Shown: positions 4,805 to 31,734 of the stretch, one piece after another
Layout of the letters: the number at the start of each line of letters is the position of its first letter
How positions within the stretch are numbered: the first letter of the stretch is position 1
Source of the DNA: Sandaracinaceae bacterium
GTDB lineage: Bacteria > Myxococcota_A > Polyangia > Polyangiales > Sandaracinaceae
Direction: 5' to 3'
Assembly (NCBI GenBank): GCA_040218145.1
Contig: JAVJQK010000098.1
Span: forward strand, 1-35,145
DNA length: 35,145 nucleotides
The notes under the pieces: generated by a model
What the model was told of the DNA's origin: nothing
The model's input: the letters and a program-made list of their open reading frames with translations, nothing else
The model's database searches: none
Position numbers and translations under genes: made by a program

Positions 4805-7666
4805 TCACACGTCGGCGAATCGGTACGTGCCACTCGGAATCACGTGGGCGTGGAGCAAGGGCGAGATGCGCGCGAGGTCATCTCGATCTACGGGCTTGCT
4901 GTCGCCGCCCTCGAGCGCGCCGACCACGCGCTCGAGCTGCCTCGTGTTCCAGAGCAGAACGCTGTTCGAGAGCACGCTCAGGGCGCTGACCTTGTTCATG
5001 ATCTCGGCGTAGTCCCCGGTCCGGAACGAACCCTGGTTCGCGAAGAAGAGGCGCCGAGCGAGCGCGTGCCGCGACTCGCCCCGGTTGAGCTGGAGGTGGA
5101 TTCGGTCCCGTACGGCGGCGTCGTGGATGTAGCGGAGAATGAAGGTGGTCTTCACGACGCGGCCGAGCATCGTCAGCGCCTTTGCGAGGCGGTCCGAGCG
5201 CGAACTGGCGGCGAGCCGGTCGAGCACCACGTGAGCCGGCGCCGTCCGATCCCGAAGCGAGGACGCTACGCGCACGAGCTGGTCCCACTGCTCACGGACG
5301 AGCTCGACGTCGATCGCGCTGCGGAACAGGCTGCGTAGGTCGCCGGCGACGTGCTCGCGGTCGAGCATGTAGAGCTGCTGGTCCTTCAGATCCTTGAGAC
5401 GCGGCATGAACGAGAAGCCCAGCAAGTAGCAGAGGCCGAAGAGCTGCTCGGTGTAGCCGTGCGTGTCCGTGTAGTGCTCGCGCGGGCGCAGGACGGTGTC
5501 GTTCTCCAGCAGCCCGTCGAGGACGTAGATGGCCTCCCGGGGAGAGCACGAGATGGCCCGCGCCGCGAAGACTGCCGACTGATCCGAGACGTGGGTGTAG
5601 ACGGTGATCGCCCGCTCGTAGAAGCCGAAGTAGCGCGGGTAGAAGCCGGCGAGGAGCGAACTCGCCTGGACGCCGAAGCGCTGGCCGTCGGAAGACGAGC
5701 GAGTTCCGTCGCCCCAGATGCCGGCGAAGGCGAGGCGGTGATGGTGGTCGACGAGGACGCGGTTCGCAGCCTTCAGCGCGTCGGCGCGCAGGCACCACTT
5801 GGACGTGCGCTGGAGCATGTCGACCGTGATGTCCTTCGTGCTCTGCGCCATCGTCGCGGTTCCGAGGTTCGTCCCGTGAGCGACCAGCGCCGCGAGCAAG
5901 GTCGGGTAGCGGAGAGTGGCGCTCCGTTCGGAGTAGCCGCTCGGCGCCGTGAGCTCCGCTGTGAAGCCCGTCCAGCGGTCGACCTCGAGCAGCAGGTCCT
6001 CGATCCGGATCCGTGGCATGTGCGTCTCGATCGCGCGCCTGAGATCTTGAACCCGCTCCGGGATGTCGAGGGCGTCGCGCTTCGACAGTCGCAGAGCACC
6101 CGCCTCGACCTTGGCGAAGCGGTTGTCAGGGAGACCGGCCCGGAAGTCGTGGAGGGCAGCGTCGAACTCCGTCCGCAGTCGCTCGAGCGCGTGCCCGGGC
6201 TCGGCCGGCAGCCCCATCTCCTGATACGCGCGGGCGCGTGCGGCGGCCCACTGCTCGGGCCCCTGAACGAGGTTCCAGAAGGACACGTGATGGCGACTCT
6301 CGGCGAGGTAGAGGTCGCCCGAACGCAGGGCGTCGCGGATGGCGAACGCGAGCGCGAGCTCCCACGAGCGCACGTCCAGCTTGCGCGCCAGGCCGCGCTT
6401 CCACAGCCCGGTCGCGAACTCCGTCGGCGGGTCCTCCCCGAGGTCTGTCGTCCCTTCGTTGTGCAGCACACGGGCGTGCTCGATCGCCTCGATGAGCGGC
6501 TCGGTCCCGGGCCCACCCTCGAACGGGAGGCGCAGGAAGTCCGGGAGGTACCGCTTGAGGGTGTGGTGTCGCGCGCGCAGCGCCTCGAACTCCCCGCGTT
6601 CGGTGAGGCGCTGAAGCTCCCGACAGCCGACGATCGCGCCCTGAACAGCATCGAGGTCGATCTGCTCGACCTGGCTCTCGTCCTTGCCGAGGAGCGCCTC
6701 CAACGCGTCGAGGACCAGGCGGAGGTTCCGGCCCGACTTCTGGCGCAGCTCGCGCTGCTTCTTCTCGTACGCGTTGCGCGCCCGTCGGTGGAGCCCGGTC
6801 GTGAAGACGTGGTGCATCTCGACCAGGTGATCGAGCACCGACTTGTTCGCCTCGACGAGGAAGCACGCGACGAGTGCGTGGCACTTGGCCGGCTTGAACC
6901 GCTTGAGGTCATCGACGTCGTAGCGACGAACGAGCTCGGCGTGGTGGAGCACGACCTCGGGCCGGACACCCGACAGGTCGACCTGGCCCACCCCGAGACC
7001 GCGCAGCAGCTCGGCGCGCTCGAGGTAGGTCTTGATCGCCGAGGGCGTCGGCTCCGGCGGATACTGCTTCAGCGCGAAGAGCTGGGAGCGGTGGCCGGGG
7101 ACATCCAAGAGATCGTCGATGGCCACCCTCTGCTCCGCCGTCAGCCGCTCACTGATGGTTCCGAGCAAGTCGTTCTCTGTGCGCGCCGCCGCCCGCGCGG
7201 CCATTCGTTCGAGCGTCGAGCGCGCCGGGATGACGATGCAGCGCAGCCGGAGGTACTCCTCGGCCTCGCGGACGAGCTCGTCGGCGAGCAGTCCGCGCGC
7301 CGCGCGTTCCGTCATCCACACGTCGAGCGTCTCCCGGGCTGTGTCGTCCAGCGTGCAGTAGCCGAGGTGGGAGCGGATCCGCTTCTCGTGCTCGAGGTCG
7401 GTCGCCTTCCGCGCCGGGGGCGTGACGAGCAGCACCGGCGGGAGGCCGACCTGCCGCCCGACGTGGTTCATGATCCGGACGGGGATCGCGTCGTACTCGT
7501 CCGGGCTCAGGAAGCGGCCGAGGCAACGGAGCACGCAGAGCTGAAGCGCGAAGCTGTGGCGCTTGTCGGCGCCTCGGCAGCGACGCACCTCGACCAGGTC
7601 TTCCTCGCTGAGCGTCCAGTCGCGCGCCAGCTCTTCGTCCGTCGGATCGACGGGCAAGCGGATCAT
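4805..7666 (-). CDS. tnpA: Tn3-family DDE transposase
   Basis: The product has 953 residues, close to the usual 950-1000 of the family. ATG 7666 is preceded by AGGGGGGAG. The N-terminal part (PTDEELARDWTLSEED) is typical of the DUF4158-like DNA-binding region. The catalytic triad can be placed at Asp653 (WGDGT), Asp734 (HYTDTHGYTE) and Glu864 (NRGESRHALARR). The motif LLGFSFMPRLKDLKDQQLY is strongly conserved in Tn3 transposases. No frameshift or stop interrupts it. It is 107 bases downstream of tnpR in the same direction, and its stop is 11 bases before the mer promoter. Confidence 0.96.
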   Translation of the reverse strand: MIRLPVDPTDEELARDWTLSEEDLVEVRRCRGADKRHSFALQLCVLRCLGRFLSPDEYDAIPVRIMNHVGRQVGLPPVLLVTPPARKATDLEHEKRIRSHLGYCTLDDTARETLDVWMTERAARGLLADELVREAEEYLRLRCIVIPARSTLERMAARAAARTENDLLGTISERLTAEQRVAIDDLLDVPGHRSQLFALKQYPPEPTPSAIKTYLERAELLRGLGVGQVDLSGVRPEVVLHHAELVRRYDVDDLKRFKPAKCHALVACFLVEANKSVLDHLVEMHHVFTTGLHRRARNAYEKKQRELRQKSGRNLRLVLDALEALLGKDESQVEQIDLDAVQGAIVGCRELQRLTERGEFEALRARHHTLKRYLPDFLRLPFEGGPGTEPLIEAIEHARVLHNEGTTDLGEDPPTEFATGLWKRGLARKLDVRSWELALAFAIRDALRSGDLYLAESRHHVSFWNLVQGPEQWAAARARAYQEMGLPAEPGHALERLRTEFDAALHDFRAGLPDNRFAKVEAGALRLSKRDALDIPERVQDLRRAIETHMPRIRIEDLLLEVDRWTGFTAELTAPSGYSERSATLRYPTLLAALVAHGTNLGTATMAQSTKDITVDMLQRTSKWCLRADALKAANRVLVDHHHRLAFAGIWGDGTRSSSDGQRFGVQASSLLAGFYPRYFGFYERAITVYTHVSDQSAVFAARAISCSPREAIYVLDGLLENDTVLRPREHYTDTHGYTEQLFGLCYLLGFSFMPRLKDLKDQQLYMLDREHVAGDLRSLFRSAIDVELVREQWDQLVRVASSLRDRTAPAHVVLDRLAASSRSDRLAKALTMLGRVVKTTFILRYIHDAAVRDRIHLQLNRGESRHALARRLFFANQGSFRTGDYAEIMNKVSALSVLSNSVLLWNTRQLERVVGALEGGDSKPVDRDDLARISPLLHAHVIPSGTYRFADV

Positions 7667-7714
7667 GTCTCCCCCCTTCGCCCCGGGTGAGACAGCCGCC
7701 CATCGGGCGGCGCG

Positions 7715-7751
7715 ATCCGTACCACAACCGTCCGGTTTTGGTACGACGGAT
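7715..7751. repeat. Imperfect inverted repeat in the tnpR-tnpA gap, candidate res subsite
   Basis: Left arm ATCCGTACCACAACCG (7715-7730) pairs with the reverse complement of 7733-7751, with one mismatch and a three-base bulge, around a 2-base centre. It lies in the 107-base gap between tnpR and tnpA (7667-7773). The space upstream of tnpR is only about 70 bases, too short for a usual three-subsite res of 100 bases or more, so res may be here. A transcript hairpin or a TnpA/TnpR operator is also possible. Confidence 0.4.
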
Positions 7752-7773
7752 TCGGACACGTGTTTCACGGGGT

Positions 7774-8379
7774 TTAGACCCCCTCTTCGTCGGACCCCTT
7801 TTTGGAACGCAGCGCGCGGTGGAGCGTGGACACCGGGACGTCGAGTTCGCGCGCCACCTCGCGGAACGAGAGCCCCTTCGTGCGGAGTCGCTTCGCCTGG
7901 GGCACATCGACCCGTCGCTTGGGTCGGCCGAGCCGGATGCCCTTCCGCCGTGCGCGCTCGATCCCCGCCTTCGTTCGCTCGGCAATCTGCGCGCGCTCCT
8001 GCTCGGCCACCCACCCGAAGATGGCGATCAACAGCGAGCGGACGGGACCGCCCGTGTCGAGCCACGGCTCGCGCACGCTGATCACCTCGACGCCGCAGCG
8101 GTCGAGGTCGAGCACCGCCTGAAGGTTGCCGGTCATCGACCGCCCGAGGCGGTCGAGCGACCACACCAGCAGTACGTCGAAGTCGCCTCGGTGCGCTGCA
8201 TCCATCATCGCCTTGAACTCGGGCCGCGCGCGGGTCGCGCTCACGCTCTCCTCGAACGTGGTGACGACCTTCAGCTTCCTCGCACGCGCCAGCCGCCGGA
8301 CGTCGGGACGCTGGTTGTCGAGGGACTGCTCCCCGCGGGAGACCCGGAGGTAGACCGCTGCGCGCTTTGCCTTCGCCAC
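7774..8379 (-). CDS. tnpR: Serine resolvase of the Tn3 element
   Basis: The product has 201 residues with a GTG start at 8379. The N-terminal resolvase fold carries AVYLRVSRGEQS with the nucleophile at Ser14, then the conserved VWSLDRLGRS and IFGWVAEQERAQIAERTKAGI (start of the long E helix). A C-terminal Hin-like helix-turn-helix follows (GLSFREVARELDVPVSTLHRAL). It resolves cointegrates formed by TnpA. It is the first gene inside the right repeat. The stop codon lies in a GGGGTCTAAACCCC hairpin (minus strand, 7782-7769). Confidence 0.94.
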   Translation of the reverse strand: MAKAKRAAVYLRVSRGEQSLDNQRPDVRRLARARKLKVVTTFEESVSATRARPEFKAMMDAAHRGDFDVLLVWSLDRLGRSMTGNLQAVLDLDRCGVEVISVREPWLDTGGPVRSLLIAIFGWVAEQERAQIAERTKAGIERARRKGIRLGRPKRRVDVPQAKRLRTKGLSFREVARELDVPVSTLHRALRSKKGSDEEGV

Positions 8380-8488: not shown

Positions 8489-10177
8489 CTACTCATTGAG
8501 GGCCTCGAGACGGGCGCGGGCTTGGACCGCGTCGGCCGCGCCCGGTGCGAGTCGCAGGTAGCGGCGGTACGCTCGCGACGCCGCGGCGCGTCGCCCGAGC
8601 CGCTCGCTGGCCAGTCCGAGGCCTCGCCAGGCGGGCCCGTGTCCTGGCGCCGCGCGCGTCGCTTCCTGAAACGAACGTTGCGCGTCGGCCAGTCGCCCCT
8701 GGAGCAGGGCGCGCATGCCCTCCCGGGTCAGCTCGCCGGCACGTGCGGGGTCGGGTGGGGCCTCTTCGGGCTCGGGCTCCTCCAACGGCGGCGCCGGTTC
8801 CTCGGTCCTCGGGATGGGGGCATCCGCGCTCTCGGCCGATGTGTCGATCCACCGTCGCGATCGGCGACGCGAGGAGCGTGGTTCCGGCGCCGGCACGACG
8901 ATTGTGCTCACCGGCTCTGGCTCCGGCTCGGGAGGCTCGAGAGCGGCGAGCAGATCGGCCTGGGGAACGAGGGCGGCGGCCGGGAGCGCGGCCGCCGCGT
9001 CCTCGGTCGATGGGGCTGCTTCCAGGACCGACTCATTGCGAGATGGCGAGGCGATCTCGTCGGCAGCAACATCGCGCATGGCCCAGAACACCGACATCAT
9101 CCCGGCGACGGCCAGAACCGCGGCGAGCAACGCCGCGGAGTACGCGAGCCTCCGAGTGGTGGGCGGCGGGAGGGTGGGTACTTCGGTCGGGAACCGGAGC
9201 TCGGCCGCCTCACTCAGCAGGCCCACCCTCTCGCGGCCGAGGCGTTCCTCCTCCACGTCGTCGGCATCGCCCGGGAAGGGGGTCGACATCCGGAGCGCGA
9301 CCCAGAGCTCGCGGGCGAAGTCTCCGGCCTTCTGTGGACGTATGCGCGGATCGCGCGCGAGGCCCCGGGCGAGCACCTCCTCGAGCGCATCGGCATGGCT
9401 CTCCCCCGTCGACTCCGAGAGGCTCGGCGCATCGTCGATGTTCTTGCAGTTGAGGATCGCGATGAAGTTCAGACCGTCGAAGGGGAGCTTGCCCGTGAGG
9501 CACTCGAACGCCACCGTCGCCAGCGAGTAGACGTCCGCGCGATGATCCGGTAGCTCGTCCCGCGTCGCGATCTCGGGAGCCATGTACTGCGGCGTACCGA
9601 CCATCTTGCCCTGTCGCGTCAGCCGCGAGGCGCCGGCCTCCGGGCTGATGAACGCGGCGATGCCGAAGTCCAGCAGCTTGACGACCGTCTTCCCATCGGG
9701 CTGCTGCGCGAGGAAGAGGTTCTCCGGCTTGATGTCCCGGTGGACGAGGCCCTTCGCGTGCACCACGTCGAGGGCCGAGGCCACCTCGCGCACGATCGTG
9801 GCGACGAGCTGGTCCGGGAGCCGCCCACGCTCCTCGAGCAGCTCGGCGACGTCGCGGCCCACGAGCCGCTCCATGCAGAGGAAGGGACGTCCGTCTTCGA
9901 GCTGCCCGAGGTCGTAGACGTCGACCGTGCCGCGGTGTCCGAGCTGACTCGCCATCTGCGCTTCCTGCTGGAACCGCTTCGAGGCCGCCTTATCGCTCGC
10001 CCACACGGGGCTGAGCACCTTGAGCGCCACTTCTCTCTGGAGCGACTCGTGCAAGGCGTCGTAGACGACCCCCATCGCTCCCTCGCCGATCACCCCGCGA
10101 ATCCGGTAGCGCCCCGCGACGGTCCGCCCGATCAGCGGATCGAGCTCGCTCATCGGCTCGAGTTCGGTCGCGCTCAT
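8489..10177 (-). CDS. Membrane Ser/Thr protein kinase with C-terminal TPR domain
   Basis: The product has 562 residues. Kinase domain at about 18-295: Gly loop GEGAMG (31-36), Lys53 (VALKVL), catalytic loop HRDIKPEN (Asp148), DFG (170-172), APE motif (200-202). All key residues are present, so it should be active. One TM helix (about 344-366) separates it from an extracytoplasmic Pro/Glu-rich linker and a C-terminal TPR-like region (about 480-555). This is the common PknB-like layout of myxobacteria, with outside sensing by TPR. The start ATG 10177 overlaps the stop of the Cys-rich lipoprotein gene as ATGA. ATG 10153 (Met9) is an alternative. The stop codon sits 2 bases from the transposon, so the end of the protein is intact or nearly so. 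Confidence 0.93.
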   Translation of the reverse strand: MSATELEPMSELDPLIGRTVAGRYRIRGVIGEGAMGVVYDALHESLQREVALKVLSPVWASDKAASKRFQQEAQMASQLGHRGTVDVYDLGQLEDGRPFLCMERLVGRDVAELLEERGRLPDQLVATIVREVASALDVVHAKGLVHRDIKPENLFLAQQPDGKTVVKLLDFGIAAFISPEAGASRLTRQGKMVGTPQYMAPEIATRDELPDHRADVYSLATVAFECLTGKLPFDGLNFIAILNCKNIDDAPSLSESTGESHADALEEVLARGLARDPRIRPQKAGDFARELWVALRMSTPFPGDADDVEEERLGRERVGLLSEAAELRFPTEVPTLPPPTTRRLAYSAALLAAVLAVAGMMSVFWAMRDVAADEIASPSRNESVLEAAPSTEDAAAALPAAALVPQADLLAALEPPEPEPEPVSTIVVPAPEPRSSRRRSRRWIDTSAESADAPIPRTEEPAPPLEEPEPEEAPPDPARAGELTREGMRALLQGRLADAQRSFQEATRAAPGHGPAWRGLGLASERLGRRAAASRAYRRYLRLAPGAADAVQARARLEALNE

Positions 10178-12138
10178 CTACACCTCGTCCCGACGCAGCA
10201 GCGGCCCATGCGGCAGGCTTCTGTGGGGGCACACGCGTTGCCGCAGGTGCCGCAGTGATCCGGGCTCGTCTGGGTCGACACGCAGGCCCCAGCGCAGTTC
10301 GTGAGGCCGGACGCGCAGCAGAGTCCGTCGCTGCAGATCGCGCCCCCGATACACGCCGCGCCGCATGCGCCGCAGTTGGCCGCGTCCGAGCTCGTGTCCG
10401 TGCACCCACTCGCGCAGCACCTCGTCCCGCCCGCGCACACCGCGCCGCAGGCATTGCAGTTGCTCTCGTCGCTGCTCGTGCAGACCCCTTCGCAGCAGAG
10501 GTCAGCCGAGCCGCAGGTGTTGCCGCAGCTGCCGCAGCTGGAGGTGTCGCTCGCGACGCAAGCCCCGCCGCAGCAGAGCTGCCCGGGGCCGCAGGTGATC
10601 CCACAGCCTCCGCAGTTGGCGGTGTCGCCGCCCGTGTTCGCGCAGGCTCCGCCGCAGCACGACTCCTCAGACGCGCACCCGGACGGGCAGCCCGTGCACT
10701 CCGGGGCCGCCGGATCGCGACAGACGCCGCTACAGCACTCCTGCCCCGCGGAGCACGCGAGCCCGCACGCGCCGCAGCTCGCCTCGGACGTCTCGAGGTC
10801 GACGCAGCCTCCGCCGCAGCAGGTTCGACCGCTGCCACACACGTTGCCGCAGACCCCGCAATGGCTCTCATCCGTCTGCGTGTCCACGCACCCATCGCAG
10901 CAGGTCCGTCCGGCCCCGCAAGAGACGCCACACGACGTGCAGTGCGTCGCGTCGCGCGCGAGATCCACGCAGGAGCCGTCGCAGCAGCTCAGGCCCGCAC
11001 CGCATGCGGCGCCGCACGCCCCGCAGTTCGCAGCATCGCCCAGCAGATCGAAGTTCTCATCCACCGCGCCGTCACAGTCCTCGTCGCGCCCGTCGCAGGT
11101 CTCCGAGACGGGATCCGGCGTGGCGCAGGCGAGGGAGCCCCCCTCGCACGCCAGCACGCCTTGGCGGCAGACCCCCAACGCCGCTCCGTCCACGCAGGCG
11201 TCGCCGCGCGTCGGGATGTCGTCGTTCACCCCGTCGCAGTCATCGTCAGTCCCCTCGTTGCTGCAGTCCTCAGCGCTCGGGATCACCTCCCCGGTGCAGC
11301 TCCCGAAGCGGCCGCCCGTACAGATCTGCGTGCCCGCGCGGCAAATCCCCACCCCGTCGCTCCCTGCTGGTCCGCCGTAGCAGCTCTGCGTCGCGCCGTC
11401 GGAGCAGGCACAGTCCTCGTCGGTCATCCCGTCGCAGTCGTCGTCGGCGGCGACGCTGCCGGACGCGGTGCATCTGTCCGGCGCCGTGGAGGGGATGACC
11501 GCGCCGACACAGCTTCCAGGCACGCCGCTCTCGCAGGCGGCCGTTCCCGGCGCGCAGGCACCCACGCAGCTCCACGTGCCGTCGGAGAGGTCCGCGCATC
11601 CCTCCGTGGCCGGCGGATAGCACTCGAGCTCGAGACCCTCGTCGACCGTTCCGTCACAGTCCTCGTCGGTCCCGTCGCAGGTCTCTCCCGTGGGATCGGC
11701 GCTGGGCGTGCACACGGCGACCGCGCCCTGGCAGCGCAGCTCCCCCTCGCCGCATGCGCCGGGCAGGACCGTCTCGCACGCGCCGTCCTCGAACTCGTCG
11801 GTGCTACCGTCGCAGTCGTCGTCCCGTCCGTTGCACTCCTCGGCCGTGGGGGTCACCTGGCCGAGGCACGGCGTGAGCGCGCCGCCCTGGCACAGCGACT
11901 CGCCAGCCCGGCACACCCCGACGCCCTCGGTCCCCTCGGATCCCGCGTAGCACGCTGTCGTGGCGCCCTCGGGCGCACAATCCTCGGGCGCCGATCCGAC
12001 ACAGAACCCCCGGTAGCAGCTCCCACCATCGCAGTCGGCGTCCGACGTGCAGCCGTGCTGCGGATGGTCCTGCGCCGCGGGCACACACGCGCTCGCGCTC
12101 AGCGCGAAGACGAGCACCCAACTCCGTCGCAGGCTCAC
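10174..12138 (-). CDS. Cys-rich MopE-like lipoprotein with two repeat families
   Basis: The product has 654 residues. GTG 12138 overlaps the upstream stop as GTGA. The signal sequence ends at ALSASAC (Cys18). The first half carries repeats ending in DxDxDG-type motifs (CNGRDDDCDGSTDE, CDGTDEDCDGTVDE, CDGRDEDCDGAVDE), like the metal-binding repeats of Methylococcus MopE. The second half has about ten units of the form CCxGxCVDxxxDxxxCGxCGxxC. Nearly all cysteines occur in regular sets, suggesting disulfide-stabilised rods or metal binding at the cell surface. It is translationally coupled to the kinase gene downstream, so it may act with the kinase's outer TPR domain; that link is inference. 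Confidence 0.85.
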   Translation of the reverse strand: MSLRRSWVLVFALSASACVPAAQDHPQHGCTSDADCDGGSCYRGFCVGSAPEDCAPEGATTACYAGSEGTEGVGVCRAGESLCQGGALTPCLGQVTPTAEECNGRDDDCDGSTDEFEDGACETVLPGACGEGELRCQGAVAVCTPSADPTGETCDGTDEDCDGTVDEGLELECYPPATEGCADLSDGTWSCVGACAPGTAACESGVPGSCVGAVIPSTAPDRCTASGSVAADDDCDGMTDEDCACSDGATQSCYGGPAGSDGVGICRAGTQICTGGRFGSCTGEVIPSAEDCSNEGTDDDCDGVNDDIPTRGDACVDGAALGVCRQGVLACEGGSLACATPDPVSETCDGRDEDCDGAVDENFDLLGDAANCGACGAACGAGLSCCDGSCVDLARDATHCTSCGVSCGAGRTCCDGCVDTQTDESHCGVCGNVCGSGRTCCGGGCVDLETSEASCGACGLACSAGQECCSGVCRDPAAPECTGCPSGCASEESCCGGACANTGGDTANCGGCGITCGPGQLCCGGACVASDTSSCGSCGNTCGSADLCCEGVCTSSDESNCNACGAVCAGGTRCCASGCTDTSSDAANCGACGAACIGGAICSDGLCCASGLTNCAGACVSTQTSPDHCGTCGNACAPTEACRMGRCCVGTRCR

Positions 12139-13257: not shown

Positions 13258-14550
13258 TCAACGGCACATCCCCGCGAGGCACATCCGTCCCATGGGGCAG
13301 AGGTTGCCGCAGGACCCGCAGTTGTTGCTGTCGAAGTTCGTGTTGACGCAGGACCCGCTGCAGAGCGTGGTTCCTCCGGCGCACATGCACGTGCCCCCCA
13401 TGCACGCGCCGAACGTGCCGCAACTGTTTCCGCACGTACCGCAGTTCGTTCGGCTGGTGTCGGTGTCGACACATGTCCCGTCGCAGAGGGTCTGGCCGGA
13501 CGGGCACGCGCCCATGCACGTACCGCCGGAGCAGGCCTCCCCGGCCGCGCAGGTCGTCCCGCAGGCGCCGCAGTTGCTCGTGTCCGTGTCGGTGTCGACG
13601 CACGTGCCGCTGCACAGAGTCTCGCCGGACGGGCACGCACACGCGCCGGAGCTGCAGACCTGACCGCCGGTGCAGGAGACGCCGCACGCGCCACAGTTGG
13701 AAGCGTCGGAGTCGGTGTCCGTGCACCCTCCGCTGCACAGCGTCTCGCCGCTGGCGCACATCCCCGCGCAAGCCCCCATGGAGCAGACCTCGCCGGAAGG
13801 ACAGGCCATGCCGCATCCGCCGCAGTGGGCCGAGTCCGTTTCGGTGTTCGTGCAGCTCCCCGAACACAGCGTCTCCCCGCTCGAACACTCACAGGCGCTG
13901 TCCACACAGGTGGTCCCACCGCCGCACACCGCGGCACAGCTGCCGCAGTTCGAGTCGTCGCTCGAGGTGTCGACGCACGCCCCGCCGCAGTCGGTCAGCG
14001 AGCCCGCGCAGCTCGAATCGCACGTCCCGAGCGAGCAGACCTCACCGCTCGCGCACGCGGTCCCGCACGCACCACAATGGCTGGCGTCGCTGCTCGTGTC
14101 GGTGCACGCGCCCGCGCAGTCGGTCTCGCCGGTGGGGCAGCCGCAGCTCCCGCCGAGGCAGTCCTCGTCGGGCCGGCACGCGAAGTCGCACGCGCCGCAG
14201 TGGGCCTCGTCGCTCCCCACGTCGACGCACCCGCCGCCGCAGTCCGTGAGCCCCGACCCGCAGGATCCGGCGCACGCCCCGCTCGAGCAGACCTCACCGC
14301 TCGCGCACGCGGTCCCGCATGCTCCGCAGTTCATCGGGTCGCTGTCCGTCACGACGCAGACCTCGCCGCAGAGCGTCTCACCGTCGCCGCAGGTCGGGGT
14401 GGGCCCACCGTCCACGTCGCCGCCATCGATGTCGCCGCCGCCGTCCAAGTCGCCGCCATCGATGCCGCCGTCGGCGGGGGTGTCGTCGTTGCAGCCATTC
14501 AGGGCCATGGAGGCCCCCATCACCGCGATCATCAACCAAGCTCGTCGCAT
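13258..14550 (-). CDS. Cys-rich repeat lipoprotein
   Basis: The product has 430 residues. ATG 14550 follows a strong GGAGGAGG site. The signal sequence ends in a lipobox (SMALNGC, Cys20), followed by an Asp/Gly-rich spacer (GGDIDGGDVDGG) and then about nine tandem units of 35-40 residues. The units follow SGETLCSGxCVDTxTDxxNCGACGxxCxxGxxCxxGxC, with six regularly spaced cysteines each. The repeats resemble those in the second half of the protein at 10174-12138, so both probably arose from the same unit. A surface-exposed disulfide-linked rod is likely. Similar ORFs are widespread in Sandaracinus-type myxobacteria with no proven role. Confidence 0.85.
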   Translation of the reverse strand: MRRAWLMIAVMGASMALNGCNDDTPADGGIDGGDLDGGGDIDGGDVDGGPTPTCGDGETLCGEVCVVTDSDPMNCGACGTACASGEVCSSGACAGSCGSGLTDCGGGCVDVGSDEAHCGACDFACRPDEDCLGGSCGCPTGETDCAGACTDTSSDASHCGACGTACASGEVCSLGTCDSSCAGSLTDCGGACVDTSSDDSNCGSCAAVCGGGTTCVDSACECSSGETLCSGSCTNTETDSAHCGGCGMACPSGEVCSMGACAGMCASGETLCSGGCTDTDSDASNCGACGVSCTGGQVCSSGACACPSGETLCSGTCVDTDTDTSNCGACGTTCAAGEACSGGTCMGACPSGQTLCDGTCVDTDTSRTNCGTCGNSCGTFGACMGGTCMCAGGTTLCSGSCVNTNFDSNNCGSCGNLCPMGRMCLAGMCR

Positions 14551-14620
14551 GCTCGTCCTCCTCCGCTCGCCCCTCGGGCGGCGTGCTGGAGAGGCGGTAC
14601 CCGGTGACGGGCCTATGGAT

Positions 14621-14761
14621 TCACCTCCGCAGCACGCAGCCGACCACGAGCAGCGCCGCGTCCACCGTGACCTCGAGAGGGCCACCGGAGCAGGCTCCCC
14701 CGGTTCGAGGTCCACCGTGGATCGCACGAAGAATCGGAAGCGAGAGCAGCCGTGTGCTCAC
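14621..14761 (-). CDS. Possible 46-residue ORF, low confidence
   Basis: The frame starts at GTG 14761 and ends at TGA 14621. Third positions are mostly G/C, and the C-terminal part has a hydrophobic run (VTVDAALLVVGCVLRR). No ribosome site is visible. It is one of three tiny consecutive frames in the 404-base stretch before the Cys-repeat gene, which otherwise holds no recognisable gene. It may be the decayed remains of a gene rather than a functional one. Confidence 0.22.
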   Translation of the reverse strand: MSTRLLSLPILRAIHGGPRTGGACSGGPLEVTVDAALLVVGCVLRR

Positions 14762-27678: not shown

Positions 27679-28116
27679 GGTTGCGGCTGCTGGGCGCCGC
27701 GACAATGGACGGGATGCGGACGCACCGCGAGTCGGGCGTGCGGGGAGTAGGGCTGACGCATGAGACCTCGCGAGGGAAGCGCGCCAATACCAGTGCGGGA
27801 GGTCGAACCACCGTGGGCGGGAACTCGCCAACCACGTGATCGCGCCGGGGATTGGCTCGTCGGACGCTCCAGTGGAGTGAGTCACCCCGACACCCGACAC
27901 ACCAAACGTGACACCCAGTGCGCCACGGGCTCGCGAGTGACGCCCATCCCGGGATACGGTGCCTCCGCGGAGGCGTGATCATCTCGACGACGCGCGCCGA
28001 GGCCAGATCCACCGGAACGACCCAATCATCCTGGCAGGCGGGAACATTCAGGCGCGACGCGCGTAGGATGGCTCGGACGCGACGTGTTGTATGATAGCAA
28101 AGGAAGTAGGTTCGGC
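27679..28116. other. Non-coding stretch after mobile-element debris
   Basis: No convincing gene is seen. It holds a perfect 14-bp palindrome GCCTCCGCGGAGGC (27961-27974), and a TATGAT box at 28090-28095 that could be the -10 element for the gene starting at 28117, although no good -35 is apparent. An AAAGGAAG run just before that gene may be its ribosome site, with a long spacer. Confidence 0.4.
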
Positions 28117-31100
28117 ATGAAGACCAGCGCGCGCGAGAAGATCACGAAGTGGAGCCAGGCGTCGGACGAGGCGATGGACGCCCTCGCGAAGGAGTACGCG
28201 AAGGACGCCGTGCACGGCGTGGATGACCGCGACGCGCTCCCGAAGGCGCGGTTGGCGCGCGCACTGATGCGCACGCTCCCCAGCATCCGGGACATCCGGA
28301 GCTGGAATCTCGTCGAGGATGTGCTCGAGCACCTCTCGCCCGAGGAGCGCGTGTCGGTCATGGTCCGGTACGACCGCAAGGACCGCCGCGGCAAGGTGCT
28401 CCCGCTCCTCGAGCGCCTCGACGAAGACCCGCGTGAGCTGCTGCGCGCCGAGCTCGAGGAGCTGCGCGCTCACCCCGATCGGGTGGCGCCGCGCGGGAAC
28501 GCCGCCTACCTCCTCGCCCAGCTCCACGTGGCGGCGGGCGAGAGCGTCCCCGAAGAGCTCGACGAGGACCTCCGATACTTCTCCGTTCTCGAGAGCGACT
28601 CCGCCTTGGACGAGCGACTCTTTCGGGCGCTCCCCAAGGCGCGCGCGGCCGCGATCGCTGGCGGATCGGTGTGGGGCAACCGGGCCCTGCTCGGGCTCAT
28701 CGACGACGAAGGACTCTACGACCAGGCGGTGCGGGCGCTCGAGGAGGCGGGCGGCAACGACATCGCCCGGGCGCTCGGAGGCGCGGGAGAGCGCGCGCTC
28801 GGGGCGCTCGAGAGGGGCGCCGAAGGCGACGCGCCGGTCGCGCGCCTGACGGGGATCGCGCAGGCCCTCGGTCTCATCCGCGCGCCGGCGTCGGCCGACC
28901 TGCTGCGGAAGCTCCTCGGGCACTCGAGCAAGACCGTCCGCGCAGCGGCGCGGCAGTCTCTCGGCGAGCTCGGAGAGGTTGCCAGGGCCGCGATCGAGGC
29001 AGGGACCGAGGCCAAGAAGAAGGCGGTTCGCGAGGCGTGCAGAGAGCTGCTCGAGATCCTCGGCGCGCAGGAGGCCGCCGCGGGCTCGCCGCTCGAACGC
29101 CTCGAGGAGGAGGCCGAGGCCCTCGACGAGGCGACGCGCGCGGCGATCCTCGCCTGGCCCAGCACCAACCCGAACGAGATGGACCTGCACGTGCGCCGCA
29201 TGACCGACGCGCACGGTCCGGTGGTGCTCGTCGTGCTGCGCGATTGGTTCCTCGAGGGGTTCCCCCGGCAGACGTCGAAGTACCTCGCCGCCATCGGCCA
29301 GCTCAGCGGTCGAGGTCCTGACGTCGCGAACCCCGTGGCTCGCCCGGAGCAGGCCCTCGCGGCCGCGTACGTCGCGCTCGACGCGATCGCGCGCGCACCG
29401 AAGCCGAAGGGGCACCAGCTCTCGGATCTGCGAAAGAGCCTCCCGGCGACCTTCGGGGCGTGGGCGGCGGAGGCCGCGGCGTCCGCGCTCCGAACCCGCA
29501 AGACGCCGCTGGCCGAGATCTTCTACGGGATCGCGGCCCAGGATCCAGCGGGCAGCCGCGACGTGCTCGTGGGCGGACTGTCGGAGAGCGGCAAGGGCAT
29601 CCGCGCGACCTGCGTCGAGGCGCTCGCGACGCTCGGTGAGGTGGCGGTGGACGACGTGCTGCCGCTGCTCTCCGCGAGGAAGGCGAGCACCCGAGAGGCC
29701 GCCGCCCGGGTGCTCGCGGCGGTGGGGAGCGCGAAGGCCACCGGCCGCCTCGCCGAGGCGCTCGACGAGGAGTCCTCCGACGACGTGCGCATGACGCTCG
29801 AGGACGCCCTCCGGGCGTCGGGCGGCGGTTCGGCGACCGCTTCGAGCCCCGGCGGGGACACTGCGCCTGCGGACACGGCGCCTGCGGACGCTGCCGACAC
29901 GGGGCCCGGGGACACAGCGCAGGGTGCCGCGGTGTGGGAGGCGCAACTCGCTGTCGCCGCGAAGCCACGCCTCCCCGCGTGGGTGGACGCGGAGGCGCTC
30001 CCGCCCCTGACCTTCGTGACCGGCGAGACGCTGAGCGACGAAGGCCGGGCGGCGCTGATCGGGCGGCTCAAGAAGGAGCACGAGCGTCCGGATGGGCTCG
30101 TCGCGGACGTGGTGCAACACCTCGACCCGGCCTCGGCCGCGGCGTTCGGGGAGGCGCTCTTCCAGCAGTGGGAGGCAGCGGGCGCCAAGGCGCGCGACAA
30201 GTGGGCCCTCTATCAGCTCGGACAGGTCGCGAGCGACGACTGGATCCACGGGACGGCGCCAGCGCTGGCCGTCATGTCGGACCGGGGCCGGCACGCGCAG
30301 GCTGGCTGGCACCTCGACGTCTACGCTCGCCTCGGTACGACGGCCGCGCTCGACTGGATCGCGTTCTGGGCCGACCACGCCGTCACCGCCGGCCTCAGGA
30401 AGAAGGCGATGGAGCAGCTCGGGGAGCTCGCCGCCGCGCGCGGCGTCTCGGAGCAGGAGCTGCGCGCGCAGCGCGATCCCTTCGTCAACGACGTGCAGGC
30501 GGAGCGGCGCGCCCCCGACCTCGGCTTCGACGCCCGGGGAGCGCAGCGGGTGAGCCTCGGGGCCCGCGAGATGACGCTTCGGATCGGCCCGGACGGCGCC
30601 CTGCGCGTGCTCGACGAGGCGGGCGAGGCGCTCGCTGGCATGCCGGCGGCGGGGCCGGACGACGACGCGGCGGCGATGAAAGCGGCCGAGCGGACGTTCC
30701 AGCGCCTCGAGAAGGAAGTGGATCGGACCCTGAAGTCGCTGAGCCCTCGCCTCGAGCGGGCGATGATCGGCCGGCGCACGTGGACCCGCGCGCGCTTCGA
30801 CGCGGTCTTCCTCTCGCACCCGATCCTCGGCGCCCTCGGCACCCGCGTGGTCTTCGCGACCGCGGACGGAAAGACCTTTCGGATCTCGGAGGAGGGCGCT
30901 CCGATCGACGCGACCGGCGCGGAGGTGACCCTCGGTGACGCCGACGTGCTCCACATCGTCCATCCGCTCGAGCTCGACGAGGCGCGCCTCGCGGCCTGGC
31001 GGGAGCACCTGCAGCGCGCCGGCGTGGTGCCGCCGTTCACCCAGATCGACCGGCCGACTTTCACGTGGACGAAGGGCCAGAAGCTGTCCGGGCCGCCCAT

Positions 31101-31734
31101 CCCGCCGCGCACGTTCAAGGCACGGGCGCGGGAGGCCGGCTGGAAGCGTGGTCCCACCGAGGATGCGGGCCTCGTCTTCTTCGACTGGATCCCGATGCCT
31201 TCCCACGGCGTCATGGTGCGGCTCCACCACAGCGGCTACGCCGCCAGCGGCGACTGGGACGAACCGGTGACCGACCCGAGTCTCGAGTTCGTCACTCCGA
31301 GCGGGGATGGGGGCGTGAACGCACGCACTCTCGATCCGATCGCGTACAGCGAGGCCTGGTACGCCGCGCAGCGGGTGCTTGGCGGCGTCGCTCCGAAGGC
31401 CGCTCCGAAGCCCCCGAAGCCCGAGACCGGCGGCGGCGCCCAGAAGGCGCTGCCCGAGATGAGCGCGGGCTTCCCGAGCGCCGATCACGCCCCCTCGGGC
31501 CGCGCGAAGTGCATGCACTGCAACCAGAAGATCGAGAAGGGAAGCGTGCGCCTCGTCGTGGAGCGCGAAATCTCCACTCCACGCTTCGAGGGCAAGGGCC
31601 CCGGCTACATGCACGGGCCTTGCGCCATCGCGTGGGCCGAAGCCAACGGCCTCGACGAGGACGACTTCGTGAGGAAGGTCCGTGCCCACACTGCGCTGGC
31701 CCAGGCCGAACTCCCTGCCCCCTTCGGGGAGTGA
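28117..31734 (+). CDS. HEAT-repeat/DUF4132 protein with C-terminal PARP-type zinc finger
   Basis: The product has 1205 residues, starting at ATG 28117 (a GTG at 28084 overlaps the likely promoter). There is no signal peptide, so it is cytoplasmic. Residues 1-560 are helical HEAT-like repeats (LLRKLLGHSSKTVRAAARQSLGELG, VLPLLSARKASTREAAARVLAAV). A Thr/Ala/Asp/Pro-rich linker lies near 570-605 (DTAPADTAPADAADTG). Residues 730-1000 resemble DUF4132 of YehI/MolR-type proteins (LRIGPDGALRVLDEAGEALAG, LERAMIGRRTWTRARFDAVFLSHPILGALGTRVV). A zinc finger of PARP type ends it: Cys1132, Cys1135, His1166, Cys1169 (CxxC-x30-HxxC). This joins a DNA-break-sensing finger to a DUF4132 module often seen with WGR domains; a role in DNA damage or NAD-linked signalling is inference. 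Confidence 0.85.
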   Translation: MKTSAREKITKWSQASDEAMDALAKEYAKDAVHGVDDRDALPKARLARALMRTLPSIRDIRSWNLVEDVLEHLSPEERVSVMVRYDRKDRRGKVLPLLERLDEDPRELLRAELEELRAHPDRVAPRGNAAYLLAQLHVAAGESVPEELDEDLRYFSVLESDSALDERLFRALPKARAAAIAGGSVWGNRALLGLIDDEGLYDQAVRALEEAGGNDIARALGGAGERALGALERGAEGDAPVARLTGIAQALGLIRAPASADLLRKLLGHSSKTVRAAARQSLGELGEVARAAIEAGTEAKKKAVREACRELLEILGAQEAAAGSPLERLEEEAEALDEATRAAILAWPSTNPNEMDLHVRRMTDAHGPVVLVVLRDWFLEGFPRQTSKYLAAIGQLSGRGPDVANPVARPEQALAAAYVALDAIARAPKPKGHQLSDLRKSLPATFGAWAAEAAASALRTRKTPLAEIFYGIAAQDPAGSRDVLVGGLSESGKGIRATCVEALATLGEVAVDDVLPLLSARKASTREAAARVLAAVGSAKATGRLAEALDEESSDDVRMTLEDALRASGGGSATASSPGGDTAPADTAPADAADTGPGDTAQGAAVWEAQLAVAAKPRLPAWVDAEALPPLTFVTGETLSDEGRAALIGRLKKEHERPDGLVADVVQHLDPASAAAFGEALFQQWEAAGAKARDKWALYQLGQVASDDWIHGTAPALAVMSDRGRHAQAGWHLDVYARLGTTAALDWIAFWADHAVTAGLRKKAMEQLGELAAARGVSEQELRAQRDPFVNDVQAERRAPDLGFDARGAQRVSLGAREMTLRIGPDGALRVLDEAGEALAGMPAAGPDDDAAAMKAAERTFQRLEKEVDRTLKSLSPRLERAMIGRRTWTRARFDAVFLSHPILGALGTRVVFATADGKTFRISEEGAPIDATGAEVTLGDADVLHIVHPLELDEARLAAWREHLQRAGVVPPFTQIDRPTFTWTKGQKLSGPPIPPRTFKARAREAGWKRGPTEDAGLVFFDWIPMPSHGVMVRLHHSGYAASGDWDEPVTDPSLEFVTPSGDGGVNARTLDPIAYSEAWYAAQRVLGGVAPKAAPKPPKPETGGGAQKALPEMSAGFPSADHAPSGRAKCMHCNQKIEKGSVRLVVEREISTPRFEGKGPGYMHGPCAIAWAEANGLDEDDFVRKVRAHTALAQAELPAPFGE

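Follow-up and report, generated by a model that had tools for sequence, protein, structure and literature searches.

A PARP-type zinc finger at the C-terminus of a HEAT-DUF4132 protein from a Sandaracinaceae bacterium, and its relatives in bacteria

A HEAT-DUF4132 protein encoded by a Sandaracinaceae bacterium carries at its C-terminus a zinc finger that, as judged by sequence comparison and its predicted fold, is a genuine zf-PARP homolog. zf-PARP fingers are the DNA-break detectors of PARP-1 and are also part of DNA ligase III. The gene lies in the window, the whole stretch of 35,145 nucleotides that was analyzed. We give an even chance to the reading, based on sequence and a structural model, that its product is a large, apparently non-enzymatic HEAT-DUF4132 scaffold, which the PARP finger, standing in for WGR, would direct to nicks or ends in DNA.

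The open frame spans positions 28084–31734 (plus strand) with a GTG start or 28117–31734 with an ATG start. As expected for high-GC DNA, long frames were numerous in the window, with 138 reaching 100 aa or more. Ranking by GC content at codon positions preferred the frame at 28117–31734, with a GC3 of 0.91 versus a GC2 of 0.52, over an overlapping 1279-aa frame on the minus strand. The following features were assigned:

28117..31734, plus strand: coding sequence, 1205 aa, with HEAT-type N-terminal solenoid, DUF4132, linker, and zf-PARP at the C-terminus (GTG at 28084 as a possible other start)
29584..29814, plus strand: best HEAT_2 match, residues 490–566 (Pfam, E 2.2e-12)
30622..31083, plus strand: DUF4132, residues 836–989 (Pfam, E 3.7e-31)
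31384..31485, plus strand: low-complexity linker rich in Pro/Ala/Lys/Gly, residues about 1090–1123 (sequence)
31468..31731, plus strand: whole folded finger with C-terminal helices, residues 1118–1205 (AlphaFold2 model and structural alignment)
31486..31662, plus strand: zf-PARP finger core, residues 1124–1182 (Pfam)
31501..31503, plus strand: R1129, aligned with the phosphate-gripping R18 (Zn1) and R122 (Zn2) of PARP-1 (alignment)
31510..31521, plus strand: putative zinc ligands C1132 and C1135 (motif)
31549..31551, plus strand: R1145, aligned with R34 of PARP-1 and conserved in double fingers (alignment)
31585..31587, plus strand: F1157, aligned with F44 in the base-stacking loop of PARP-1 (alignment)
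31612..31623, plus strand: putative zinc ligands H1166 and C1169 (motif)

The DUF4132 module (PF13569), which an earlier sequence-only reading had placed ahead of the finger, scored 108.9 bits against a Pfam cut-off of 27, and a profile of relatives extended the similarity to residue 1083 (position 31365). The first part of the linker was modeled with low confidence (pLDDT <50 at model residues 9–15). NCBIfam gave no curated-level match for the protein, and Pfam detected neither WGR nor a PARP catalytic domain (PF00644) in it, the latter in line with the earlier statement that none was visible. The window genome likewise contained no candidate for a PARP catalytic domain. The protein has one finger only, without the tandem Zn1-Zn2 pair of the PARP-1-type DNA-binding domain. 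To our knowledge, DUF4132 has no known activity.

The four ligands form exactly the CxxC-x30-HxxC pattern in which the sequence-only reading had recognized the spacing of PARP-1 fingers. The Pfam zf-PARP model (PF00645) matched the finger core with an E-value of 6.1e-8 and 33.7 bits, under the curated cut-off of 39.3; the stretch scored alone reached 38.7 bits. Despite the sub-cut-off score, the match is more than chance, because PARP-1 Zn1-Zn2 was found at 2.3e-12 when the C-terminus was compared by phmmer with the full set of PDB sequences. The top 14 of the 15 rows of this search were PARP-1 or entries named "poly (ADP-ribose) polymerase". In the AlphaFold2 model of the finger (mean pLDDT 85), model residues 22–109 superposed on residues 111–197 of PARP-1 Zn2, with a Z-score of 9.9 to the DNA-bound structure (3ode_A) and 2.5 Å over 84 residues; the first unrelated structure had a Z-score no higher than 4.8. 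In the Foldseek search, fingers of PARP-1 or of a protein named poly(ADP-ribose) polymerase filled rows 1–27, and row 28 was the DNA ligase III finger. The structure prediction proposed earlier thus matched the zf-PARP fold; neither an unrelated finger fold nor the lack of a DUF4132 profile match, named beforehand as contrary outcomes, occurred.

The window finger shares 57–58% identity with the second finger of a Sandaracinaceae relative (L113), and it is of the second-finger type (79.3 bits versus 38.5 for the first-finger type). Its core net charge is +3, the same as that of PARP-1 Zn1. A chance CxxC/HxxC pattern or a wrong reading frame might be suspected from the many long frames and the Pfam score; this explanation was ruled out by the phmmer result, the predicted fold, the identity to L113, and the GC3 pattern, and its probability is negligible.

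The finger resembles PARP-1 Zn1/Zn2 (PDB 3ODE, 4AV1, and 2N8A) in the CxxC-x28-30-HxxC motif, the grip arginine, the base-stacking phenylalanine, and the predicted fold with its C-terminal helices. Unlike PARP-1, the protein is bacterial, has one finger instead of two, is joined to HEAT-DUF4132, and has no match to BRCT, WGR, or catalytic domains. The finger of DNA ligase III (PDB 1UW0), a nick sensor, is also a single finger of this fold, but its Z-score was 5.8 versus 9.9 for PARP-1, and the window finger is C-terminal in a protein with no ligase domain matched.

Two arginines and a phenylalanine are retained in the window finger at the positions of PARP-1 DNA-contact residues, which is a match of position and not of function. 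R34 of PARP-1 is one of these DNA-contact residues. The stand-alone double-finger proteins show how strongly these positions are kept. The R18-equivalent is Arg in all 58 first fingers and in 57 of 58 second fingers, and a loose pattern for the R34 position found Arg in 58/58 and 56/58, respectively. The DNA-gripping arginines of these 58 proteins therefore nearly match the zinc ligands in conservation, which would be hard to explain otherwise and thus favors a phosphate-type ligand for the double fingers. Phe occupies the F44 position in the window finger and in the fingers of the other three DUF4132 fusions. Of 27 second fingers with this loop length, 15 also have Phe there; none of the 58 first fingers has an aromatic residue at this position. 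According to PMC8150716, the phosphate grip of R18/R122 and the base-stacking loop of F44 are used at an exposed DNA end.

The zf-PARP fold may serve other uses, because the zinc ligands are missing from L048, one of the double-finger relatives, and a second zf-PARP in the window genome is a single finger on a protein with membrane segments apparent by eye. Together with the missing aromatic residue in first fingers, these cases would fit a zinc module with a structural or protein-binding role, in which the fold was retained and DNA binding was lost. We consider this unlikely for the window finger, which keeps every position, and the conservation of the grip arginines in the double fingers also argues against it.

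Among 317 Polyangia genomes, zf-PARP was found on 4 of 151 DUF4132 frames, including the window protein, and each of the four bears one C-terminal finger of the second-finger type. The other three (L183, L184, and L186) come from two other families; L183 (39.6 bits) and L186 (45.5 bits) scored over the zf-PARP cut-off and L184 (33.8 bits) under it. The earlier statement that DUF4132 is paired with WGR elsewhere held true: WGR occurred on at least 27 of the 151 frames, and Pfam directly detected both domains in L085. No frame among the 151 was seen to carry both WGR and zf-PARP. In the window genome, WGR was present on other contigs (C96 and C39). Trees of the fingers placed the window finger near the HEAT-type relatives L113, L101, and L185 with weak support and united L183, L184, and L186 in a separate well-supported clade. 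Constraining the four fused fingers together was not rejected (p-AU 0.231), nor was constraining the four DUF4132 domains (p-AU 0.433), among which the window protein has a long branch; we therefore do not claim independent origins of the fusions.

WGR-HEAT-DUF4132 or MolR-like proteins such as L085 share the HEAT-type solenoid and DUF4132 with the window protein, which differs in lacking an N-terminal WGR and in carrying zf-PARP at the opposite end. Leptospira LIC_12901 combines LRR, WGR, and DUF4132 (PMC11674859). In MolR-like transcription factors, WGR is described as the domain that binds DNA (PMC7824862). WGR and zf-PARP both occur on the same kind of DUF4132 proteins, and the window protein could accordingly be a MolR-like transcription or nucleoid factor whose finger, like WGR, is a general DNA binder without specificity for breaks. 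We regard this as possible but fairly doubtful: the counterparts of R18 and F44 are preserved in the finger, and no regulated operon was apparent near the gene. In Deinococcus, a DUF4132 gene was upregulated on DdrO depletion (PMC8533742), which is indirect evidence for the scaffold reading given at the outset.

The neighbors of the gene in the window encode a transposase, cytochrome/peroxidase and imelysin proteins, and secreted-type proteins. No repair gene was found beside it or beside the three other fusions, simple patterns detected no SOS- or RDR-type box upstream, and the window contained no Rfam or tRNA genes. The WGR, PARP, or macro domains that the sequence-only reading had suggested looking for near homologs were absent from the 10 neighbors scanned around L183, L184, and L186. 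When a 10.5-kb query was compared with a genome labeled as the same species (G287), only about 290 bases at one end matched well (76%), plus short scraps; this genome is 84% complete, and the gene may still be present there.

The defense role suggested earlier was not borne out. A role in conflict with phages or other bacteria, set off by foreign or damaged DNA ends, would be compatible with the 9–10 copies of HEAT-DUF4132 paralogs in some genomes, since such numbers can go with conflict systems, and with a weak likeness of the L085 WGR region to PADLOC WGR_XIII (1.8e-5). We judge it improbable: neither the window protein (best E 0.075) nor three zf-PARP relatives matched a PADLOC model significantly, no defense or mobile-element gene adjoins the gene (a Tn3 transposase is some 20 kb distant), and two viral-contig scans and tblastn searches of plasmids and phages found no relatives.

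The sequence-only reading had not seen that the finger has many bacterial relatives, most of them stand-alone double fingers. zf-PARP was present in 78 of the 317 Polyangia genomes, and a genome scan yielded 61 loci, distributed over several phyla; almost all of these encode stand-alone double-finger proteins with the layout of PARP-1 Zn1-Zn2. These proteins (L086–L145) share the second-finger type with the window finger and differ from the window protein in being small (about 165–220 aa), with two fingers and no HEAT or DUF4132. Across the genomes, zf-PARP and PARP occurred together no more often than by chance, with six genomes containing both versus 5.9 expected. BLASTP clustering of 636 neighbor ORFs, chosen greedily by length, revealed no conserved operon partners at the 61 loci. 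The widest clusters, a protein-kinase group, a carboxylase-like group falling within Kofleriaceae-type synteny, and a response-regulator/kinase group, spanned 5 of 61 loci, and weak signals could be missed because many of these ORFs in high-GC DNA are probably spurious.

Bacterial PARPs (WGR-PARP_reg-PARP_cat) resemble the window protein in using a PARP-associated DNA-contact domain and differ in possessing a catalytic domain. The available parts of two surveys of these enzymes (PMC4245714 and PMC5966428) describe WGR, regulatory, and catalytic domains and mention no zinc finger. Our literature search, which saw sources in part and had most subscription journals outside its scope, recognized no description of bacterial zf-PARP proteins.

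In the scaffold reading given at the outset, the C-terminal finger would dock the protein onto DNA ends or nicks, with R1129 and R1145 gripping the backbone and F1157 stacking on exposed bases. WGR is the other DNA-contacting part of PARP-1. The finger would occupy the role held by WGR in MolR-like relatives, as an exchangeable tag that directs the protein to damaged DNA and is used without ADP-ribosylation, and HEAT-DUF4132 would be the part that recruits or acts. From the conserved residues and the predicted fold, nick or break sensing is plausible; we infer DNA binding, break specificity, and the recruiting or acting role of HEAT-DUF4132. The use of two fingers by PARP-1 against the single finger here counts against this reading, although DNA ligase III also has one; the lack of repair neighbors and SOS/RDR-like boxes noted above, the ligand loss in L048, the finger on the protein with apparent membrane segments, and the absence of a known activity for DUF4132 likewise count against it.

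The window protein is not unique: zf-PARP recurs on bacterial proteins without PARP, as does its fusion to DUF4132, and bacteria may sense DNA breaks by means of such fingers with no PARP enzyme attached. More tentatively, stand-alone Zn1-Zn2-like tandem fingers could constitute a PARP-independent break-recognition module in several phyla, which in Polyangia would have been joined, as an alternative to WGR, to scaffolds that include HEAT-DUF4132, ankyrin, and LRR/TIGR02996; the fingers of eukaryotic PARP-1 could derive from such proteins, or the reverse. A bacterial family with the detector but not the enzyme would offer a small, directly testable system for what break recognition does alone, would provide the first functional handle on DUF4132, and would bear on the origin of the PARP-1 architecture.

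The frame at 28117-31734 on the forward strand encodes a 1205-aa protein, and its codon-position GC contents (GC1 0.75, GC2 0.52, and GC3 0.91) favored it over the antisense frame overlapping it. The following features were found in the protein.

HEAT_2, Pfam E 2.2e-12
DUF4132, residues 836-989, Pfam E 3.7e-31
zf-PARP, residues 1124-1182, Pfam E 6.1e-8 (score 33.7 bits, short of the curated cut-off of 39.3)
Zinc ligands of the finger, C1132-x2-C1135-x30-H1166-x2-C1169

The coordinates, CxxC-x30-HxxC spacing, and DUF4132 assignment of the sequence-only reading were correct. When the last 115 residues were compared with all PDB chains by phmmer, PARP-1 Zn1-Zn2 was matched at 2.3e-12 (2n8a) and 2.9e-12 (4av1); 14 of the top 15 rows were PARP-1 or named poly(ADP-ribose) polymerases, and the 15th (BH1327, E 0.13) was not significant. 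An AlphaFold2 model of the window finger, generated with 43 homologous second fingers in the input, had a mean pLDDT of 85 (core blocks 89-95) and a pTM of 0.67. Foldseek ranked PARP-1 fingers on top (E 6e-6 to 1e-3) and the DNA ligase III finger after them, with whole-model rmsd often 7-10 Å because the flexible tail was counted in. In a second structural comparison excluding low-confidence stretches, DNA-bound PARP-1 Zn2 (3ode_A) matched residues 1118-1205 of the window protein with Z 9.9 at 2.5 Å over 84 residues, versus Z 5.8 for the DNA ligase III finger and 4.8 for the first unrelated row. Structure prediction, one of the checks proposed for this finger, bore out the zf-PARP fold; by phmmer homology and predicted fold, it is a real PARP finger.

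zf-PARP was present in 17/282 genomes of a phylum-wide sample; within the class Polyangia, 78/317 genomes had it (69 above cut-off); the same search found it in none of 14 control genomes. When 84,980 species genomes were scanned with an alignment of 13 double-finger proteins as the query, 61 zf-PARP loci were returned. By record name, they belong to Myxococcota/deltaproteobacteria, Gamma- and Betaproteobacteria, Acidobacteria, Bacteroidota, Rhodothermia, Planctomycetota, Gemmatimonadetes, Melainabacteria, and one Thorarchaeota contig. The majority were metagenome bins; the exceptions include L133, from the complete genome of Betaproteobacteria GR16-43, and L124, from Acidobacteria Mor1. The Thorarchaeota (Asgard-archaeal) protein L146 and the myxobacterial L196 (G498) each end in a single finger, and the regions ahead of it resemble each other by eye.

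Two fingers were detected in 58 of the 61 loci, the second CxxC lying ~83-105 residues past the first. First- and second-finger profiles told all pairs apart (58/58 and 58/58, each set being scored with the profile built from itself). The window finger was of the second type (79.3 vs 38.5 bits with the second- and first-finger profiles, respectively), as were those of the three other proteins with DUF4132 and a C-terminal zf-PARP (L183, L184, and L186). When one double-finger protein was modeled (mean pLDDT 95.4), the best structural matches were 2n8a (PARP-1 F1F2 bound to a DNA single-strand break, E 6.5e-11) and 9mi8 (the N-terminal domains of PARP-1 bound to nicked DNA, 3.7e-10). The alignments took in 160 and 159 residues across both fingers, respectively, but at 7.2-7.9 Å, so that in this model the individual fingers match PARP-1 and their relative placement does not.

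According to passages of PMC8150716, PARP-1 grips the phosphate backbone with R18 (Zn1) and R122 (Zn2), and its base-stacking loop comprises F44 (Zn1) and L161/I164 (Zn2). In the alignment, R1129 and F1157 of the window protein occupy the R18 and F44 positions, respectively. R1145 aligned with PARP-1 R34, presumably a DNA-contact position. Among the 58 two-finger relatives (the 61 scanned loci minus three without two detected fingers), the R18 equivalent was Arg in 58/58 first and 57/58 second fingers, and a loosely set pattern detected Arg at the R34 position in 58/58 and 56/58, respectively. In a 35-row alignment (A4), all eight zinc ligands were among the invariant columns, as were R12, R28, and R119; R103 was almost invariant. 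Phe occupied the F44 position in the window finger, in the three remaining DUF4132 fusions, and in 15/27 second fingers that share its loop length; its occurrence in 0/58 first fingers argues against PARP-1 Zn1 having simply been copied position for position.

The three other fusions came from two genomes in two other families of the class.

L183, 1118 aa, DUF4132 E 1.5e-25, one C-terminal zf-PARP 8.8e-10, TIGR02996
L184, 1070 aa, DUF4132 E 9.3e-18, one C-terminal zf-PARP 5.9e-8, TIGR02996
L186, 760 aa, DUF4132 E 7.1e-31, one C-terminal zf-PARP 1.3e-11, TIGR02996

The fusion may have arisen once or several times, as single grouping was rejected neither for the four fused fingers (p-AU 0.231) nor for the four DUF4132 domains (0.433). 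DUF4132 gave 151 matches in 62 of the 317 genomes, of which four shared a frame with zf-PARP and, among the matches listed, at least 27 with WGR and none with both; frame sharing was judged by eye from identical contig and open-frame length. HEAT-DUF4132 copies were expanded in two Sandaracinaceae-like genomes (10 in G283 and 9 in G284), and two such proteins lie in tandem on contig C127 of the window genome.

Partners were surveyed with Pfam and NCBIfam on 18 distinct selected long frames, 16 with zf-PARP and two with DUF4132 but no zf-PARP.

Ankyrin repeats, L044, L190, L194
LRR, L188
TIGR02996/DUF3553, L187, L189
5-FTHF cyclo-ligase, L191

zf-PARP was the sole match in L031, L046, L077, L182, L185, and L196. 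L191 (1751-2965, reverse strand) carries a double zf-PARP and a complete 5-formyltetrahydrofolate cyclo-ligase (Pfam 7.2e-37) in one frame, as a fusion or in-frame neighbor. L077/L101, L113 (truncated by a contig end), L182, and L185 are ~950-1070 aa long with one or two N-terminal fingers, and the bodies of the three scanned had no Pfam match; by eye, the C-termini of L077/L101, L182, and L185 are reminiscent of the YwqG/DUF1963 family. A passage of PMC11674859 describes a Leptospira protein combining WGR, LRR, and DUF4132; zf-PARP and WGR, two DNA-contact parts, thus have partners in common.

No PARP catalytic domain candidate was found in the window genome. Class-wide, PARP occurred in 24/317 genomes and zf-PARP in 78/317, and both in 6 vs 5.9 expected, indicating that the fingers do not travel with the enzyme. 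The surroundings of the finger gene were as follows.

Upstream, imelysin (M75) and di-haem oxidoreductase/peroxidase genes
Downstream, trypsin-FG-GAP frame
4805-8164, reverse strand, Tn3-family transposase frame (DDE_Tnp_Tn3 1.7e-132), ~20 kb from the finger gene
More distant, Ser/Thr kinase with TPRs, STIG1-repeat proteins, FecR

The proteins at 10174-12138 and 13258-14727 (both reverse strand), which adjoin the kinase gene, have multiple matches to STIG1, a plant stigma-specific, cysteine-rich family (Pfam 6.1e-24 and 4.8e-48, respectively). No neighbor in the window pointed to either repair or defense, and PADLOC gave no significant match for the window protein, so the suggested defense role gained no support; the WGR-HEAT-DUF4132 relative L085 had a weak WGR_XIII match (1.8e-5). 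Neighbors of the other fusions included VWA, cytochrome b, fumerase, PpiC, GDSL, and metallophosphatase proteins.

L048 (1073-1759, reverse strand), in a genome that also has a PARP catalytic domain (G206), is double zf-PARP-like, lost the zinc ligands in both fingers (CKTT/CIVT, no HxxC), and keeps SGRAxC-like and KGxxR-like motifs; from its sequence, it appears to be a zinc-free descendant of the fold. The window genome has one other zf-PARP, in L047 (15968-16687, reverse strand, contig C36): a single first-type finger that closes a 239-aa protein in which, by eye, two stretches look transmembrane. L047 has a counterpart in G287 (L201).

Homology and predicted fold suggest that the window finger contacts DNA, and its putative phosphate-grip and stacking positions would underlie a preference for breaks. 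HEAT-DUF4132 would form the body, and the finger would serve as an address that brings the protein to DNA ends or nicks, a task that WGR may perform in relatives. The main doubts are the single finger, the zinc-less L048, the lack of a repair neighbor, and the occurrence in the window genome of another finger on a protein that seems to have membrane segments. A passage of PMC8533742 reports strong upregulation of a Deinococcus DUF4132 gene upon DdrO depletion, an indirect clue to what DUF4132 may do. The best reading is a HEAT-DUF4132 body addressed to DNA ends or nicks by a PARP finger. zf-PARP, HEAT, WGR, and DUF4132 are known families; no description of bacterial zf-PARP proteins was found in the literature searched, and passages of the 2014 and 2018 bacterial PARP surveys mention only WGR, regulatory, and catalytic domains. 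The finding is thus a known break-sensing fold set within a bacterial, PARP-free, recurrent DUF4132 architecture.
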